Of a stretch of DNA of 64,000 nt, positions 57,815 to 64,000 are shown in pieces. The stretch spans positions 1 to 64,000 of the forward strand of contig NZ_CCRF01000064.1 of the NCBI RefSeq assembly GCF_000751775.1, read 5' to 3'. Position 1 is the stretch's first letter. Every line of letters starts with the position of its first letter. The notes below the pieces were generated by a model, which made no database searches, had not been told where the DNA came from, and was given only the letters and a program-made list of their open reading frames with translations. Source of the stretch: Caldibacillus thermoamylovorans. GTDB taxonomy: Bacteria > Bacillota > Bacilli > Bacillales > Caldibacillaceae. Position numbers and translations under genes: made by a program.

Positions 57815-58780
57815 TTAATTTGTATCAAAATGCTCGTACGCATGAATAATCTTCGCAACTAATGGATGGCGTACAACATCACTTTCTTCCAAATAAACGA
57901 AAGCAATATCCGGGATGTTCTTTAAAATCTTTTCCACCGACGAAAGACCAGAATGTATCCCACGTGGTAAGTCAATTTGTGTTAAGTCCCCGGTAATGAC
58001 CATTTTTGAACCAAAACCGAGTCTTGTTAAAAACATCTTCATTTGCGCCTGCGTTGTATTTTGTGCTTCATCAAGAATAACAAAAGCATCGTCTAGTGTA
58101 CGGCCACGCATATAAGCAAGCGGAGCAATTTCAATCGATCCGCGTTCGATTAATCTTTGGGTATGTTCTTGTCCAAGGACATCATGAAGTGCATCATATA
58201 ATGGTCTTAAATAAGGATCAACTTTTTCTTTTAAGTCCCCAGGCAAAAACCCTAAACTTTCTCCCGCTTCCACAGCCGGACGGGTTAAAATGATTCGCTT
58301 CACCAGATTATTTTTTAGCGCATGAACGGCCAATACAACTGCCAAATAAGTTTTTCCTGTACCGGCCGGGCCAATTCCGAAAACAAGATCATGATTTTTT
58401 ATTGAATGAACATATTGACGCTGACCCAATGTCTTTACACGAATCGGTTTTCCTTTTGCATTCCTCGTAATTTCTTCTTTATATAATTCATTAAAATATT
58501 CGATTGTCCCCTGTTTTTCCATTTGTAAGGCTAATGAAACATCACGAGGGCTAATCGTAATTCCTTTTTTAACATTTTGGTGAAGGGCGTTTATAATATG
58601 TTTCGCCGATTGGATATTCGCTTCTTCACCTGTAATCCGGATCACTTCACCTCTTGTCGTGATCGAAACACCCAACTCATTTTCAATCAGTTTCAAATGG
58701 CTGTCTGCTGTTCCGAATAAAACAATCGGATTTTCTAAATCATCTAAAGGATATTCTAGTGTATTCAAAAATGACAACAC
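57815..58780 (-). CDS. phoH: PhoH family ATPase
   Basis: 321 aa. N-terminal KH-like region (about 15-75), then a P-loop ATPase with Walker A GPAGTGKT (137-144) and Walker B ILDEAQNTT near 233. Linked to RNA metabolism with YbeY and Era. It lies 2 bases after yqfD. Confidence 0.94.
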   Translation of the reverse strand: MLSFLNTLEYPLDDLENPIVLFGTADSHLKLIENELGVSITTRGEVIRITGEEANIQSAKHIINALHQNVKKGITISPRDVSLALQMEKQGTIEYFNELYKEEITRNAKGKPIRVKTLGQRQYVHSIKNHDLVFGIGPAGTGKTYLAVVLAVHALKNNLVKRIILTRPAVEAGESLGFLPGDLKEKVDPYLRPLYDALHDVLGQEHTQRLIERGSIEIAPLAYMRGRTLDDAFVILDEAQNTTQAQMKMFLTRLGFGSKMVITGDLTQIDLPRGIHSGLSSVEKILKNIPDIAFVYLEESDVVRHPLVAKIIHAYEHFDTN

Positions 58781-58782
58781 CC

Positions 58783-59988
58783 CTAATTTTGAATAATTGG
58801 CTCTTCTTGCGGAATAATCGGTTCTTCTTTTGCAATATTTTCAATCACATCGTAAGTTACCAATAATTTTAATTTACCATTCTCTACCTTTTCATGCAAA
58901 ACTTTTTCTTCCACAATTTTAGCATCTTTCGGGATCGATTCAATGACATTCTTCTTTGCAATGGATAAAGCCAATTGTTTTGCTTCTTCCTCATTATATG
59001 CTTTTTCATGAATTTCGACTTCCCGAATGGTAGTTTTCTCAATAGCTATAGGCAACGTCCATTTTAAAAACTTTATCGCCGTCTCGTCTTGCTCTTGTTG
59101 TTTATTTTGATATTGCACTTTTTTAAATCCCCAAATCGGTATCGATAAATGACCGATTTTAATTGCCGTCCGTCTCACTTCATTACCAGTCATTAATTCA
59201 AATTGATTGTGTAATTGAACCTCCACTTCGGTATCATACCATGTTTTACCGAAAATTTCTCCCTTAGCAGATACATATTGAGGTTCATCCTCTTTGCCGA
59301 TAATCCCAGAGACTAAAAGCTGACCCGGTTTGACAAAATCATGAACAGAAATGACAGGCTGTCCTTTTTCAACGAAATAATCTACAATGACAGCCTCTTT
59401 TTTCGCAACGAGATGCTGAGGACCTTTTTTCTCCTGTGGTTCCGGCTGCTCTTTTTCAACCACTTGAAAATGATAGGTTGTCCCTTTTAACTCCACACCA
59501 ATCCAAGTAATATCTTCATTCATATTGGAAAGCTTTCGCTGAATGGTTTCCGGGTCATCAATAAAAAATTGAAATCCACCTTTTCTTACTCCTAGTTGTT
59601 TCAATTGATTGGTGATTTTATACTCTACTTCCGGACTTGCACCTTTTATTTCAATTTTCCAAATCATATTGGATAATAGTAGCACAATAAAGAGGGCAAT
59701 GACGGCACCGAGCAAAAAACCTGCATTTTTCTTTAATCTTTTCAAGTAGAAAGGAAACCCTGCTTTTTTAATAAATCTAACTTTTACTTGATGATAATGA
59801 ACGGCTTGTCTAAGAAAGGGAACGTCTTTTATAAACATTTGGAATGTGACTGCATTAGGCTCGACACGTTTAACATTCCAAATTTGTACCTTATCCCTGG
59901 TTAGTTGGTTGATAAAACGCTCCATTCCTTTCCCTTCAATTTTTACGGTTAAATGACCCGATAATTTGTGAAACCATAAATTTTTCAT
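58783..59988 (-). CDS. yqfD: Sporulation protein YqfD
   Basis: 401 aa from the ATG at 59988, preceded by GGGGTGAGG. One membrane helix at about 90-110 and a large extracytoplasmic domain; matches SpoIV-type family YqfD, SigE-controlled in B. subtilis. The C-terminal EEPIIPQEEPIIQN repeat is an odd short tail. Forms a unit with phoH. Confidence 0.92.
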   Translation of the reverse strand: MKNLWFHKLSGHLTVKIEGKGMERFINQLTRDKVQIWNVKRVEPNAVTFQMFIKDVPFLRQAVHYHQVKVRFIKKAGFPFYLKRLKKNAGFLLGAVIALFIVLLLSNMIWKIEIKGASPEVEYKITNQLKQLGVRKGGFQFFIDDPETIQRKLSNMNEDITWIGVELKGTTYHFQVVEKEQPEPQEKKGPQHLVAKKEAVIVDYFVEKGQPVISVHDFVKPGQLLVSGIIGKEDEPQYVSAKGEIFGKTWYDTEVEVQLHNQFELMTGNEVRRTAIKIGHLSIPIWGFKKVQYQNKQQEQDETAIKFLKWTLPIAIEKTTIREVEIHEKAYNEEEAKQLALSIAKKNVIESIPKDAKIVEEKVLHEKVENGKLKLLVTYDVIENIAKEEPIIPQEEPIIQN

Positions 59989-60211
59989 AACCTCACCCCA
60001 TCTGCCAACCTTCTTTTTGCCGATCAAGTGAAGATTCTATCTACACTTGAACGGCTCTCTTCGCCGAGTTCTTATATGTACATCCCATTCGTGCAAGTGG
60101 TATTCAAGCCATCCAGCGGTTTTGCCCCCGCCGAATGGTTGTTGTTCTGATATAAAGAGCCCCAGTTAGACTTGAAAAAACGGGCAAATAGTAAACTCTG
60201 CCGAATAGTAT

Positions 60212-60496
60212 TTACTCTGGTATAAAGAGCACCTGTTCAATTTTCCCTTCCAACAATATTTCTTCAGGTAAAATCGTTTTAATGACAAATGCTTTTCCTT
60301 TAATCAATAATTGCCCTTGACTTAATAAAATACGGATTTCTTTATCTGAAAAGGAGAGTAGTCCCTTATGATTTTCAATATAAATATGAATTTGTCCCAC
60401 CATGGTTATCCGGGGAAAATCCATCATAACATCTTCCGGGAGATCCAGCTGATTTGTAATCCATCTGCGCATTTTCTGTCTCCATTTTTTCGCCAA
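60212..60496 (-). CDS. yqfC: Sporulation protein YqfC
   Basis: 94 aa, YabP/YqfC family. Starts at TTG 60496, with AAAGGGGG 8-9 bases before it; no in-frame ATG gives the full family domain. In B. subtilis the gene is SigE-dependent and needed for sporulation. The ribosome binding site lies in the 3' arm of a strong hairpin (60505-60540). Confidence 0.9.
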   Translation of the reverse strand: MAKKWRQKMRRWITNQLDLPEDVMMDFPRITMVGQIHIYIENHKGLLSFSDKEIRILLSQGQLLIKGKAFVIKTILPEEILLEGKIEQVLFIPE

Positions 60497-60504
60497 AAAA
60501 GAAA

Positions 60505-60540
60505 CCCCCTTTCATTCATAATTATGAATGGAAAGAGGGT
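60505..60540 (-). promoter_or_regulatory. Hairpin covering the yqfC ribosome binding site
   Basis: On the minus strand CCCTCTTTC / GAAAGGGGG arms extend the perfect palindrome CATTCATAATTATGAATG, and TTTCTTTTTT follows. It looks like a terminator for the upstream yqfB unit, but its 3' arm contains the Shine-Dalgarno of yqfC. Confidence 0.75.
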
Positions 60541-60589
60541 TCTAGCACTATTTTTCTTATTTCATTTTATTTCAAAGTAAGGAAGCACA

Positions 60590-61090
60590 TTATATCTTAT
60601 TATTTGGGCGAAACGGCTTTTTGGCACGAGGGGGTCCTAATATTTCTGACCATATAATACCCTCAACGACTTTATGAGCAGATCGGTTTGGCAATGGTTG
60701 AGAAGCCATTGCTTGCTTCCTTGATAATTCTGTTTTTAAGTTTGTATATTCCTGCTGGAGCTGCTTTGTTGTTTGAGCGGTTTGGACTACCTCTGTTTTC
60801 TTTTCCTCAATCACCGGCCTTATTTTTTTCGCTTGCTGAGTGACGGTCGGCAGATGTTTTTGAACTTCTTGTCTTAATTTCTCTTCCATTTCCCGTTTTA
60901 ATACGTCAAAAGGTTTTTCTTTTTTCTCTGTCGTTTTCTCAGCTTGCCGTATATCTTTCTTCCCGGGCGGAAGGGGGTTTATCGGTTTAGTTGATGTATC
61001 TTTATTATTTTCTTTCCTTCCAAGTAAAGAAAGAATCCCGCCTATAATTATGATTACAAGAGGTATATTATTCAATATAAATTCGATCAT
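60590..61090 (-). CDS. yqfB: YqfB-like membrane protein
   Basis: 166 aa. Short N-terminal membrane helix (about 6-24), then a charged helical stretch (about 40-135) with coiled-coil character and a basic end. Follows floA by 23 bases. B. subtilis YqfB is associated with FloA membrane microdomains. Weakly conserved outside the ends. Confidence 0.82.
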   Translation of the reverse strand: MIEFILNNIPLVIIIIGGILSLLGRKENNKDTSTKPINPLPPGKKDIRQAEKTTEKKEKPFDVLKREMEEKLRQEVQKHLPTVTQQAKKIRPVIEEKKTEVVQTAQTTKQLQQEYTNLKTELSRKQAMASQPLPNRSAHKVVEGIIWSEILGPPRAKKPFRPNNKI

Positions 61091-61113
61091 GAGGGAATTC
61101 CCCCTTCATCTTT

Positions 61114-62103
61114 CTACTTTTTATCTTGATCATTATTCACATCAGTTGCTTTACTAATTGATTGTCTCATGTCGGTATCAGCCATGATATTTTTATAATT
61201 CATATAATCCATAACACCGAGATTTCCCGATTTTAGTGCGTCTGCCAAAGCAAGCGGAACTTGGGATTCTGCTTCCACCACTTTTGCTCTCATTTCTTGA
61301 ACACGAGCCACCATTTCTTGTTCAGTAGCAACAGCCATGGCCCTGCGTTCTTCTGCTTTTGCCTGAGCAATTTTCTTATCGGCCTCAGCTTGGTCCGTTT
61401 GCAACATCGCACCGATATTTTTACCGATATCAACGTCGGCAATATCAATCGATAGAATTTCAAAGGCAGTTCCGGCATCTAAACCTTTTTTCAAAACAGT
61501 TTGTGAAATTAAATCAGGGTTTTCAAGTACGGCTTTATGGTCTCTTGATCCCCCAATTGTACTGACGATCCCTTCACCAACACGGGCAATAATCGTTTCT
61601 TCACCGGCACCACCGACGAGACGATCAATATTAGCCCGAACGGTAATTCTTGCCTTTGCTTTCACTTCAATGCCATCCAAGGCAACCCCGGAAATAAACG
61701 GTGTTTCAATCACTTTCGGGTTAACGCTCATTTGTACGGCTTCCAATACATCCCGTCCTGCCAAGTCGATCGCTGCACAACGTTCAAAGGTCAAATCAAT
61801 ATTTGCTCTTTGGGCGGCAATCAGTGCATTGACAACACGGTCGACATTTCCTCCGGCCAAATAATGACTTTCCAATTGGTTAATCCCGACAGGCAAACCG
61901 GCTTTATGGGCTTTAATTAACGGATTAACGATTCGGCCCGGAATAACTCTTCTCAGGCGCATCCCAACTAATGTAAAAATACTTACCCTTACCCCTGCAG
62001 CTAAAGCGGAAATCCAGAGTGCCACCGGAATAAAGGATAATAATAAAACGAGAAAAATAATAATTATCGCTGCAAAAATTAATGGAACAAAATTAAAGGG
62101 CAT
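61114..62103 (-). CDS. floA: Flotillin-like protein FloA
   Basis: 329 aa. N-terminal membrane hairpin (about 5-40), a PHB-like domain (about 60-215) and a coiled region rich in A, E and Q ([20 protein letters not shown]). Organises functional membrane microdomains. Central gene of yqeZ-floA-yqfB. Confidence 0.96.
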
Positions 62104-62134
62104 GAATGATCCTCCTTTTTATATGTTAAATAAT

Positions 62135-63451
62135 TTAATCAACCAGTTCACGAACAACGATACGAACGCCTTCTACCTCCACAACCTCAACACGAGCACC
62201 GCTATTGATAAAGCCGCCTTCTGTCACCGCATCAATGCGCTCATTATCAATAATGATGGTCCCCGATGGGCGCAGCGGGGTGAGGGCTATACCTGTTTTT
62301 CCTAACAAATCTGTTCTTGACGCATTTGAGACATAACCTTTTTCTGTACTTGTTGAATCACTCAACACAATCTTATTGAACACTTTGATTTTTTTCCCAA
62401 AAAACTTCATTAGAATCACCATCGCCGTTATTGCAACTGCTATTGCAATGAATAAACTTATGCTCATAAAAACAATACTTTTCCCGGCTAAAATGATGGA
62501 AAATAAAATACTTCCCAGACCGAGAAATCCGACAATACCCCCGGGAACAAATAATTCAACAACAATTAATATTATACCTAAAATAAATAAAATTAGCGAT
62601 TCATATCCGGCGAGTCCAGCAATATAATGTCCGTAGAAAAATAAGAGCAGTGAAGTCAGACCGGCAATTCCCGGAAGACCAAAACCCGGTGAATAAAGTT
62701 CAATGACTAACCCGAGACTGGCAATGGTCAATAAAATCGGGACTATAAACGGATTTGTTACAAATTCAGCAATCCGCTCCGACCAGGATTTATTTACCTG
62801 TTTGATTTCTGCATTTTCGTACCCTAATGTATTCAACAGCTCATTTTTATTTGCAACAATTCCTTCTGCATAACCGACTTCAACACTTTGGGCGGCAGTC
62901 AAAGTCAATAATTTTCCTTTTGGAGCGCCGTATTCCGGAAGATCAATGGAATCATCCGCCATCGCCATCGCATAAATGGGATCTCTACCGTTTTGTTCGG
63001 CAGCCGATTTCATTGCCGCCAGCCAATAACTTTGTGCTTTTTGATCTGCGGCATTTCCGTTTTGTGTGATGACTGCAGCAGCACCGATCGTTGCATTGGG
63101 GACCATATAAATTTCATCCATATTCAATGCAATATATGCACCGGCCGATAAAGCATCATGGTTGATAAAGGCGATTGTTTTCACATCCGTATCGCCTAAA
63201 ATTTTTGCAATATCTGAAGCTGCGTCAACCGCTCCACCCGGTGTATGGATTTCAAAAATGATCGCATTAGCTTGATTTTCTTCGGCAGTGGAAATGGCAC
63301 GCCCGATAAACTCGGATAGACCTTTCGTTACTTCACTATCAATCTTAGCATAATAAACAAGATCATTATTCGCATCTGTTTCATGGAAGGTCATTAACAG
63401 AAACGGGAGTAAAATCAGAAGAAAACTTAACCGTAAAATCTTCTTATGCAA
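62135..63451 (-). CDS. yqeZ: NfeD family serine protease-like protein YqeZ
   Basis: 438 aa. Signal peptide (about 1-27), a ClpP-like domain (about 30-215) with NHDALSAGAYIALNMDEI, four helices (about 230-345), and a C-terminal OB-fold NfeD domain. Works with FloA; the two genes are 31 bases apart and form one unit. Confidence 0.94.
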   Translation of the reverse strand: MHKKILRLSFLLILLPFLLMTFHETDANNDLVYYAKIDSEVTKGLSEFIGRAISTAEENQANAIIFEIHTPGGAVDAASDIAKILGDTDVKTIAFINHDALSAGAYIALNMDEIYMVPNATIGAAAVITQNGNAADQKAQSYWLAAMKSAAEQNGRDPIYAMAMADDSIDLPEYGAPKGKLLTLTAAQSVEVGYAEGIVANKNELLNTLGYENAEIKQVNKSWSERIAEFVTNPFIVPILLTIASLGLVIELYSPGFGLPGIAGLTSLLLFFYGHYIAGLAGYESLILFILGIILIVVELFVPGGIVGFLGLGSILFSIILAGKSIVFMSISLFIAIAVAITAMVILMKFFGKKIKVFNKIVLSDSTSTEKGYVSNASRTDLLGKTGIALTPLRPSGTIIIDNERIDAVTEGGFINSGARVEVVEVEGVRIVVRELVD

Positions 63452-63547
63452 AGCAATGCCTCCCTTCTTTTCAAAGGTTAACTTATAATACGGATGGGAG
63501 CGAAAATGGTTTCATTTTTTATAAATAATTATAGAAGCGGTTTTTAA

Positions 63548-63594
63548 ATGAAAAAGGCTGTCCATGGATAAGACAAAATGGACAACCTTTTTTA
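63548..63594 (-). terminator. Terminator of yqeY
   Basis: AAAAAAGGTTGTCCAT pairs with ATGGACAGCCTTTTT around a 12-base loop, between yqeY and yqeZ. Confidence 0.85.
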
Positions 63595-63610
63595 TCTATG
63601 AAAGCTGTAT

Positions 63611-64000
63611 CTATTTTGATAACTCGCTTACAACAATTTTGTTCACGAGCGAACCATCAGCTTTTCCTTTTACTTTCGGCATAACAACTGCCATGACTTT
63701 CCCCATATCGGATTTAGAAGAAGCATCCACTTCCCGGATAGCCTCTTTGACGATTTCTTTTATTTCATCTTCAGTTAATTGTTCAGGCATATATTCTTTG
63801 ACATAAGTAAGTTCTGTATTGATTTTTTCAGCTAAGTCCGTCCGACCTGCTTTTTCAAATTCATGGAGGGAATCTTTTCGTTGTTTGACTTCACGTGAAA
63901 GAACGGTAATCTCTTCCTCTTCGGATAATTCTTTGCCAAGCTTAATCGCTTCATTTTGCAAAGCCGCTTTAATCATCCGAATGACTGAGAGTTTTTCCTT
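63611..64000 (-). CDS. yqeY: GatB/YqeY domain protein YqeY (5' end beyond window)
   Basis: At least 129 aa; the frame runs off the window edge, so the start is not seen. The sequence continues upstream of the first visible ATG as KEKLSVIR, matching full-length YqeY of about 148 aa. The domain resembles the tRNA-binding tail of GatB. Likely cytoplasmic; function unclear. Confidence 0.92.

Follow-up and report, generated by a model that had tools for sequence, protein, structure and literature searches.

The hairpin directly upstream of the sporulation gene yqfC in Caldibacillus thermoamylovorans is probably a fusion of the yqeZ-floA-yqfB terminator with the promoter and the ribosome binding site of yqfC. 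We infer the transcription start, the termination, and the silence of read-through RNA from the DNA of the window (the whole 64,000-nt stretch analyzed; NZ_CCRF01000064.1, positions 1 to 64,000) and from related loci.

As proposed, RNA polymerase arriving from the operon would make both arms of the hairpin, and the hairpin with its U tract would stop most polymerases shortly ahead of the yqfC start codon. Escaping RNA would carry the yqfC ribosome binding site locked within the 3' arm. During sporulation, the sigma-E polymerase would bind the -35 and -10 elements, located in the DNA that encodes the 5' arm and the apex. Initiation inside the 3' arm would then place the ribosome binding site at the 5' end of the RNA, where it would have no partner. 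One compact hairpin, with all these signals packed into about 55 bases, would thereby determine both the end of the growth-phase operon and the choice of yqfC RNA that can be translated. The use of sigma E in C. thermoamylovorans is presumed by analogy with Bacillus subtilis 168, in which the yqfC region has the same layout as the window and a hairpin of -25 kcal/mol. The yqfCD genes of B. subtilis are under the control of sigma E (PMC517825), as are the homologues of C. difficile (PMC3789822).

Hairpin, predicted promoter, and ribosome binding site of yqfC

The gene order on the minus strand of the window is yqeY-yqeZ-floA-yqfB-yqfC-yqfD-phoH, where yqeY and yqfB are named from their position. 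The protein encoded by yqfC passes the NCBIfam cut-off for TIGR02856 (124.7 vs 77.8 bits). Its TTG start is supported by most relatives, in which an ATG or TTG is found at the equivalent codon and is followed by an N-terminus of the MAKKW type. The DNA from the yqfB stop codon (60590) to the yqfC TTG (60496) is AGTGCTAGAACCCTCTTTCCATTCATAATTATGAATGAAAGGGGGTTTCTTTTTTG. The features of the region are as follows.

62135-63451, minus strand: yqeZ, NfeD1b family (PF25145, PF24961, PF01957)
61114-62103, minus strand: floA (yqfA) (PF12127, NF010186)
60590-61090, minus strand: yqfB by position, no family above cut-off; stop codon 41 nt before the -35 element
60543-60548, minus strand: predicted sigma-E -35 element GTGCTA (GTGMTA conserved in relatives)
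60527-60542, minus strand: promoter spacer of 16 nt, most of the 5' arm of the hairpin (assessed by spacer shuffles)
60519-60526, minus strand: predicted sigma-E -10 element CATAATTA, located at the hairpin apex (CATA conserved in relatives)
60502-60542, minus strand: hairpin, with 5' arm 60542-60524, loop 60523-60520, and 3' arm 60519-60502
60505-60512, minus strand: Shine-Dalgarno sequence AAAGGGGG, within the 3' arm of the hairpin (from sequence)
60495-60504, minus strand: U tract TTTCTTTTTT, which joins the ribosome binding site to the start codon and completes the intrinsic terminator (from sequence)
60212-60496, minus strand: yqfC, sporulation protein, TTG start at 60496 (TIGR02856, PF07873)
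58783-60027, minus strand: open frame of yqfD, with a likely ATG start near 59988 (TIGR02876, PF06898)

A stretch of 38 nt where yqfC ends is repeated (60130-60167 and 60200-60237, 79% identity, 70 nt apart) in what looks like a partial duplication. The gap between yqfC and yqfD, inside which the second copy lies, is about 220 nt in the window; in B. subtilis, yqfD follows yqfC almost directly.

The minus-strand RNA folds into a hairpin of 18 pairs with one bulge and a 4-nt loop at -21.7 kcal/mol. The 16-nt spacer was shuffled 300 times without producing a fold as good as the native one, and the hairpin is conserved (see below); it is therefore real and not the product of chance. An earlier fold z-score of -2.7 was calculated for the plus strand and hence is no evidence on the minus-strand RNA. 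The stem contains G-C pairs and is followed at once by the U tract, which is the construction of an intrinsic (Rho-independent) terminator; a simple terminator scan of the region, which returned 4 sites against 6.1 expected by chance, did not list the yqfC hairpin. The sequence AAAGGGGG is located 8 nt before the TTG and is the sole good ribosome binding site at the right distance. The first-pass annotation had placed this sequence in the 3' arm of a hairpin ahead of a T run, as the fold and coordinates bear out. It had also named it the only good site for the TTG start, which agrees with the 8-nt distance.

A whole sigma-E-type promoter, overlooked in that annotation, spans 60548-60519 and consists of GTGCTA, 16 nt, and CATAATTA; a CATA-type -10 element is thus preceded by a -35 element at the conserved spacing. 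The consensus for the sigma-E -35 element has an ATA core, from which GTGCTA deviates. When spacings of 15-17 nt were allowed, GTGMTA (5 or 6 of 6 positions) was found 16 nt before the -10 element in 77/80 close relatives and at 51 of the 62 order-level loci, one of which is the window. CATA, which was sought only in the 48 nt before the yqfC start, is present in 80/80 and 59/62 of these loci, respectively, 23-35 nt before the start. Among 27 loci of other Bacillota (L086-L111 and L171), GTGMTA occurs at 2 only. CATA is found within 48 nt of the yqfC start at 25 of the 27, at distances of 25-42 nt and even where there is no hairpin; a very short yqfC leader is therefore probably old. The sigma-E layout described in PMC517825 has elements of 8 and 10 positions that are 12 ± 1 apart, and the distances at yqfC would fit this layout by our own assignment of bases to elements.

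By sequence and folding, both arms of the hairpin occur only in RNA arriving from upstream, and in the window the ribosome binding site is within the 3' arm. Transcription usually starts 14 nt after the C of CATA in a -10 element of this type. From this distance and the position of the -10 element, the first base of the sigma-E transcript should be at about 60512, on the ribosome binding site, with the 5' arm absent. The first-pass annotation had held that only a transcript starting inside or just past the 5' arm would expose the site, and it is there that the sigma-E-type promoter was found. The promoter motif at its fixed spacing fits a separate yqfC RNA that, from its predicted start site, would lack the 5' arm.

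Both transcript forms were folded. The predicted openness of AAAGGGGG is 0.001 in the read-through RNA and 0.92 in the short sigma-E RNA, with values of 0.79-0.95 across three assumed starts (the predicted start and two bases to either side). For B. subtilis yqfC, the predicted values are 0.0004 and 0.55 for the read-through and sigma-E forms, respectively. At the 29 hairpin loci, the openness of the Shine-Dalgarno sequence is 0.05 with the native upstream sequence versus 0.40 with shuffled sequence, and it is lower in 29/29. The corresponding values for 27 non-hairpin loci with the promoter motif are 0.39 and 0.50 (p 0.012).

Conservation of the hairpin and exchange with separate terminators

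A locus was scored as having the hairpin when the fold was -15 kcal/mol or better and at least 4 bases of the ribosome binding site were paired to the 5' arm. By this measure the hairpin occurs in 78/80 close relatives, 29/62 order-level loci (window included), and all 18 loci from the genus of G342. In other Bacillota it was scored at 4 of the 25 loci that could be assessed, 27 having been fetched and two without CATA (L098 and L110) dropped from the hairpin tables. Under a stricter rule, by which no more than 1% of spacer shuffles may match the native fold, 78/80, 27/62, 6/18, and 3/25 loci qualify, respectively. The 12 of 18 loci that fail in the genus of G342 do so because a C-rich spacer lets the shuffles fold nearly as well. 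The 80-locus and 62-locus sets share three genomes. In the genus of B. subtilis, 23/39 loci fold at -15 kcal/mol or better (39 of 41 genomes were read; G139 sits in the order set as L083, and G492 was left out). The conservation in relatives on which the first-pass annotation had staked its hairpin is thus observed, with more than half of the order sample (33/62) being without the structure.

The stem of L012 is perfect over 20 bp and has a 4-nt loop. A long, nearly perfect stem followed by a T run is found at L091, in another part of the phylum, and its unrelated sequence suggests that the hairpin arose there independently. The 5' arm has been lost at L029 and L036; floA is about 2 kb upstream in L036, and it was looked for near L029 and not found. 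No more than 10 nt separate the upstream stop codon from the -35 element at 34 of 127 hairpin loci, so close that a ribosome ending translation there might interfere with the 5' arm. Two loci of the Bacillus type, L045 and L055, come from assemblies titled Chryseobacterium sp. ISL-80 and Pseudomonas sp. ISL-84, respectively, which are probably mislabelled.

An alignment was made of 62 of the 101 distinct hairpin sequences, including five from the genus of B. subtilis; oddly spaced, near-duplicate, and non-Bacillales sequences were left out. Over 20 bp, 91.6% of the cells are paired, compared with 47-64% when slid, a level that is partly by choice since the rows were preselected as hairpins. 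Doubly changed cells number 25 against 9.7 after shuffling and, because the alignment holds hairpin loci only, are better evidence of conserved pairing than the pairing level. Pairs with changes on both sides number 7, which does not clearly exceed the 5.4 for shuffles, since 93/500 shuffles reach that count. The bases of the 5' arm opposite the G's of the ribosome binding site are C (237), T (61), A (6), and G (3). The ratio of G-U to A-C, used as an RNA versus DNA symmetry test, does not discriminate, being about 3.5 both with and without the hairpin.

A pattern consisting of a Shine-Dalgarno sequence, a U tract, and a start codon was searched for in the window genome and in B. subtilis. Twelve matches were obtained at 10 places, and the reversed control gave 4. 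Among the matches, B. subtilis yqfC alone folds strongly (-25.0), with the next best at -10.1. The pattern required RTG, so the TTG-start yqfC of the window was unmatched.

Separate terminators were sought from the upstream open frame to the -10 element as folds of -11 kcal/mol or better with a T run, and they largely exchange with the hairpin. The counts for both structures, hairpin only, terminator only, and neither are 5, 24, 31, and 2 in the order sample (Fisher 3e-10), 0, 4, 19, and 2 in other Bacillota (p 0.001), and 4, 74, 1, and 1 in the 80 close relatives (p 0.12), with p-values that overstate the significance through the shared descent of the samples (61 sampled genomes, 54 genera). 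The either-or pattern is not significant in the close relatives because just two are without the hairpin. L137 was counted as neither in this gap-based table despite a strong terminator seen in another scan. The gap-based search is biased in that the short gaps of hairpin loci leave less room for a terminator. A fixed 170-nt search, which is free of that bias, gave 4, 25, 25, and 8 loci for the order sample (p 9e-7), and 7 of the 8 loci with neither have a strong terminator farther upstream. The median upstream gap is 19.5 nt for hairpin loci and 87 nt for the others (p 5e-5).

In the order sample, the fraction of T between the Shine-Dalgarno sequence and the start codon is 0.77 at the 29 hairpin loci and 0.33 at the other 33 (p 9e-9). 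Few T follow the ribosome binding site despite the hairpin at L156 (2/5, with TTCATC in place of the U tract) and L145 (3/8). The order-level loci with both the hairpin and a separate terminator are L113, L121, L145, L156, and L157. At L112, which was not counted as having both in the gap-based table, the hairpin is kept behind a strong separate terminator, and floA was not found within 1.5 kb upstream.

Both arrangements occur within the genus of B. subtilis. At its hairpin loci, the upstream stop codon is positioned from 9 nt inside to 8 nt before the -35 element (mostly 0-1 nt). At 14 other loci (L227-L239 and L252), there is no hairpin and a separate terminator is found in a gap of 125-316 nt. 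L245 has neither structure by the gap-based scan, and L249 was unscored.

A further layout was observed at L151, L155, L157, L162, L164, and L165, in which the terminator has the -35 element GTGATA as its loop and the yqfC promoter spacer as its T run. Terminator and promoter would thus swap layouts in evolution, nested around the -10 element, around the -35 element (these six loci), or separate.

Probable roles of the hairpin, alternatives, and known systems

Stopping transcription of the floA operon is the best-supported job of the hairpin, in view of the either-or pattern, the T run that accompanies the hairpin, and the mention of a terminator behind yqfB in B. subtilis (PMC3498285). Hiding the ribosome binding site from read-through is likely a second effect that is not needed in every lineage. 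There is room for a real translational role, since five loci keep the hairpin in addition to a separate terminator and few T are present at L156 and L145. The first-pass annotation had proposed that gating of read-through RNA keeps yqfC silent in growth. Its structural part stands, with the two arms confined to upstream RNA, a sigma-E-type promoter in place, and the hairpin conserved; as to purpose, the either-or pattern makes termination read as the main selected job.

The effects of a sigW mutation in B. subtilis are -2.11 to -2.25 for yqeZ, yqfA, and yqfB and -0.76 and -0.72 for yqfC and yqfD, respectively (PMC3498285). The authors of that study regard yqfC and yqfD as truly sigma-W-regulated, with sigma-W read-through into yqfCD. 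Should the hairpin act in the way that the sequence implies, the sigma-W read-through RNA would yield little YqfC, and regulation by sigma W would be true for the RNA only.

We regard as a real possibility, and lean slightly against, the view that the hairpin is a compact terminator only, in which the overlap of promoter and ribosome binding site is an economy of space and the hiding is invisible to selection. The exchange with ordinary terminators, which leave the ribosome binding site unhidden, the accompanying U tract, and the shorter gap of hairpin loci are all consistent with this view. The five loci with both structures, the TTCATC of L156, and the hairpin of L112, kept behind a strong terminator with floA not found nearby, argue against it. 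It is unlikely that translational silencing of sigma-W or constitutive read-through is instead the main purpose, with termination secondary. The near-zero predicted openness in read-through RNA, the read-through into yqfCD that occurs in B. subtilis (PMC3498285), and the precedent of sigG (PMC5942855) point in that direction. Against it, 33 of the 62 order-level loci do without the hairpin, and openness there is slightly below that of shuffled sequence.

The inverted repeat could also be a DNA-level operator, for example for SpoIIID, the repressor of yqfCD in B. subtilis, which we consider very improbable. SpoIIID bound all 18 upstream fragments chosen in PMC517825, and yqfC is on the list of EMSA fragments in that paper. 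A U tract and an exchange with terminators are unexpected of an operator. The core of the SpoIIID site is GGACAA; this sequence, sought from the -35 element to the start codon, and TTGTCC, sought in the spacer, are absent in 29/29 hairpin loci of the order sample. The closeness of a terminator to the start codon might further call to mind a ligand-sensing leader (riboswitch or attenuator), which is barely credible here. No aptamer-like part was recognized in the single fold considered, and the predicted sigma-E RNA is without the 5' arm. A search of 58700-64000 with Rfam 15 up to an E-value of 1 gave no credible match, the single hit being a snoRNA at 61088-61143 with 23.3 bits versus a cut-off of 50.

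The gating logic preferred here for yqfC is already known from T4 gene e and sigG. In the fold-back inhibition of IS10 and IS50, transcripts from outside hide the ribosome binding site of the transposase and those from inside do not; unlike yqfC, these are mobile elements with no terminator and no sporulation promoter. Long upstream transcripts of the T4 genes e, soc, 49, and I-TevI hide the ribosome binding site in a helix (PMC3014915). As proposed for yqfC, the late promoters of gene e are in the DNA of the 5' strand and start RNA without that strand (PMC3014915). Gene e differs in that the account of the helix in this source describes no terminator function, and in having a phage late promoter rather than one for a sporulation sigma factor. 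For B. subtilis sigG (spoIIIG), a hairpin of 20 or more bp was proposed to block translation of spoIIGA-sigE read-through RNA; transcripts initiated at the sigG promoter are unable to form it (PMC5942855), as is predicted for the sigma-E RNA of yqfC. It is unlike yqfC in that the passages on this hairpin do not present it as a terminator, the promoter is of the sigma F/G type, and a second small hairpin at the ribosome binding site acts on the gene's own transcript (PMC5942855).

The yqfC hairpin of B. subtilis is located where PMC3498285 notes the terminator after yqfB, and the description of that terminator does not mention that the sigma-E promoter or the ribosome binding site overlaps it. 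In the article passages covered by a literature search, no description of a terminator, promoter, and ribosome binding site overlapping at yqfC was found. So far as this search showed, the new element is a hairpin that hides a ribosome binding site, doubles as the terminator of the preceding operon, and has the -10 element at its apex.

Related arrangements at other sigma-E genes

A wider design, in which sigma-E genes behind growth-phase operons use promoter DNA as the arm that pairs with the ribosome binding site, so that the site is open only on the sigma-E RNA, is offered as a tentative and rather doubtful lead; the statistics are mixed across yabP, ypjB, and bofA. For a survey of B. subtilis, 15 regions were fetched, 10 of which had no scorable promoter by motif scan. 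The ribosome binding sites of yabP and ypjB, two sigma-E genes close behind another open frame, fold against the promoter spacer (-21.3 and -20.9, respectively). No such hairpin was obtained by folding for B. subtilis spoIVA, spoVB, ylbJ, and yqfZ.

In all 12 loci from the genus of G342, the 60 nt that precede yabP have folds of -17 to -27; yabP of the window genome has no such hairpin (-2.9). At 35 loci, the yabP spacer matches its own ribosome binding site better than species-swapped partners (p 2e-4). The openness of the yabP site was 0.17 in the read-through form and 0.49 in the sigma-E form, a comparison biased by RNA length, and most of this contrast was gone with shuffled or swapped upstream controls. 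Against these controls, the openness with the native upstream sequence barely differs for either yabP (p 0.10 and 0.87, respectively) or ypjB (p 0.04 and 0.08, respectively).

The ypjB spacer matches its own ribosome binding site better than swapped partners at 29 loci (L320-L347 and L349), with p 0.02, or 2e-4 with TTGTCC masked. This match has an alternative reason, since a SpoIIID-like TTGTCC is found in 27/29 of the promoter spacers; GGACAA is beside the ribosome binding site in 16/29. The two sequences could be SpoIIID-like sites in inverted orientation, an arm of the RNA, or both at once.

In the bofA set, the promoter motif is present at 2/25 called starts only, many starts being miscalled and resembling those of the neighboring gene, which we take to be yaaL. 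When starts were called again, 16/30 were obtained and 14 were left uncalled, including that of L353, which was folded separately. The ribosome binding site of L365 is hidden in a hairpin of -30.8, where no CATA was recognized. The bofA region of L353 (1403-1470) has the whole nested layout in a sequence unrelated to yqfC, with the promoter motif, a ribosome binding site in the 3' arm, a T run, a TTG start, and a fold of -36.4 kcal/mol.
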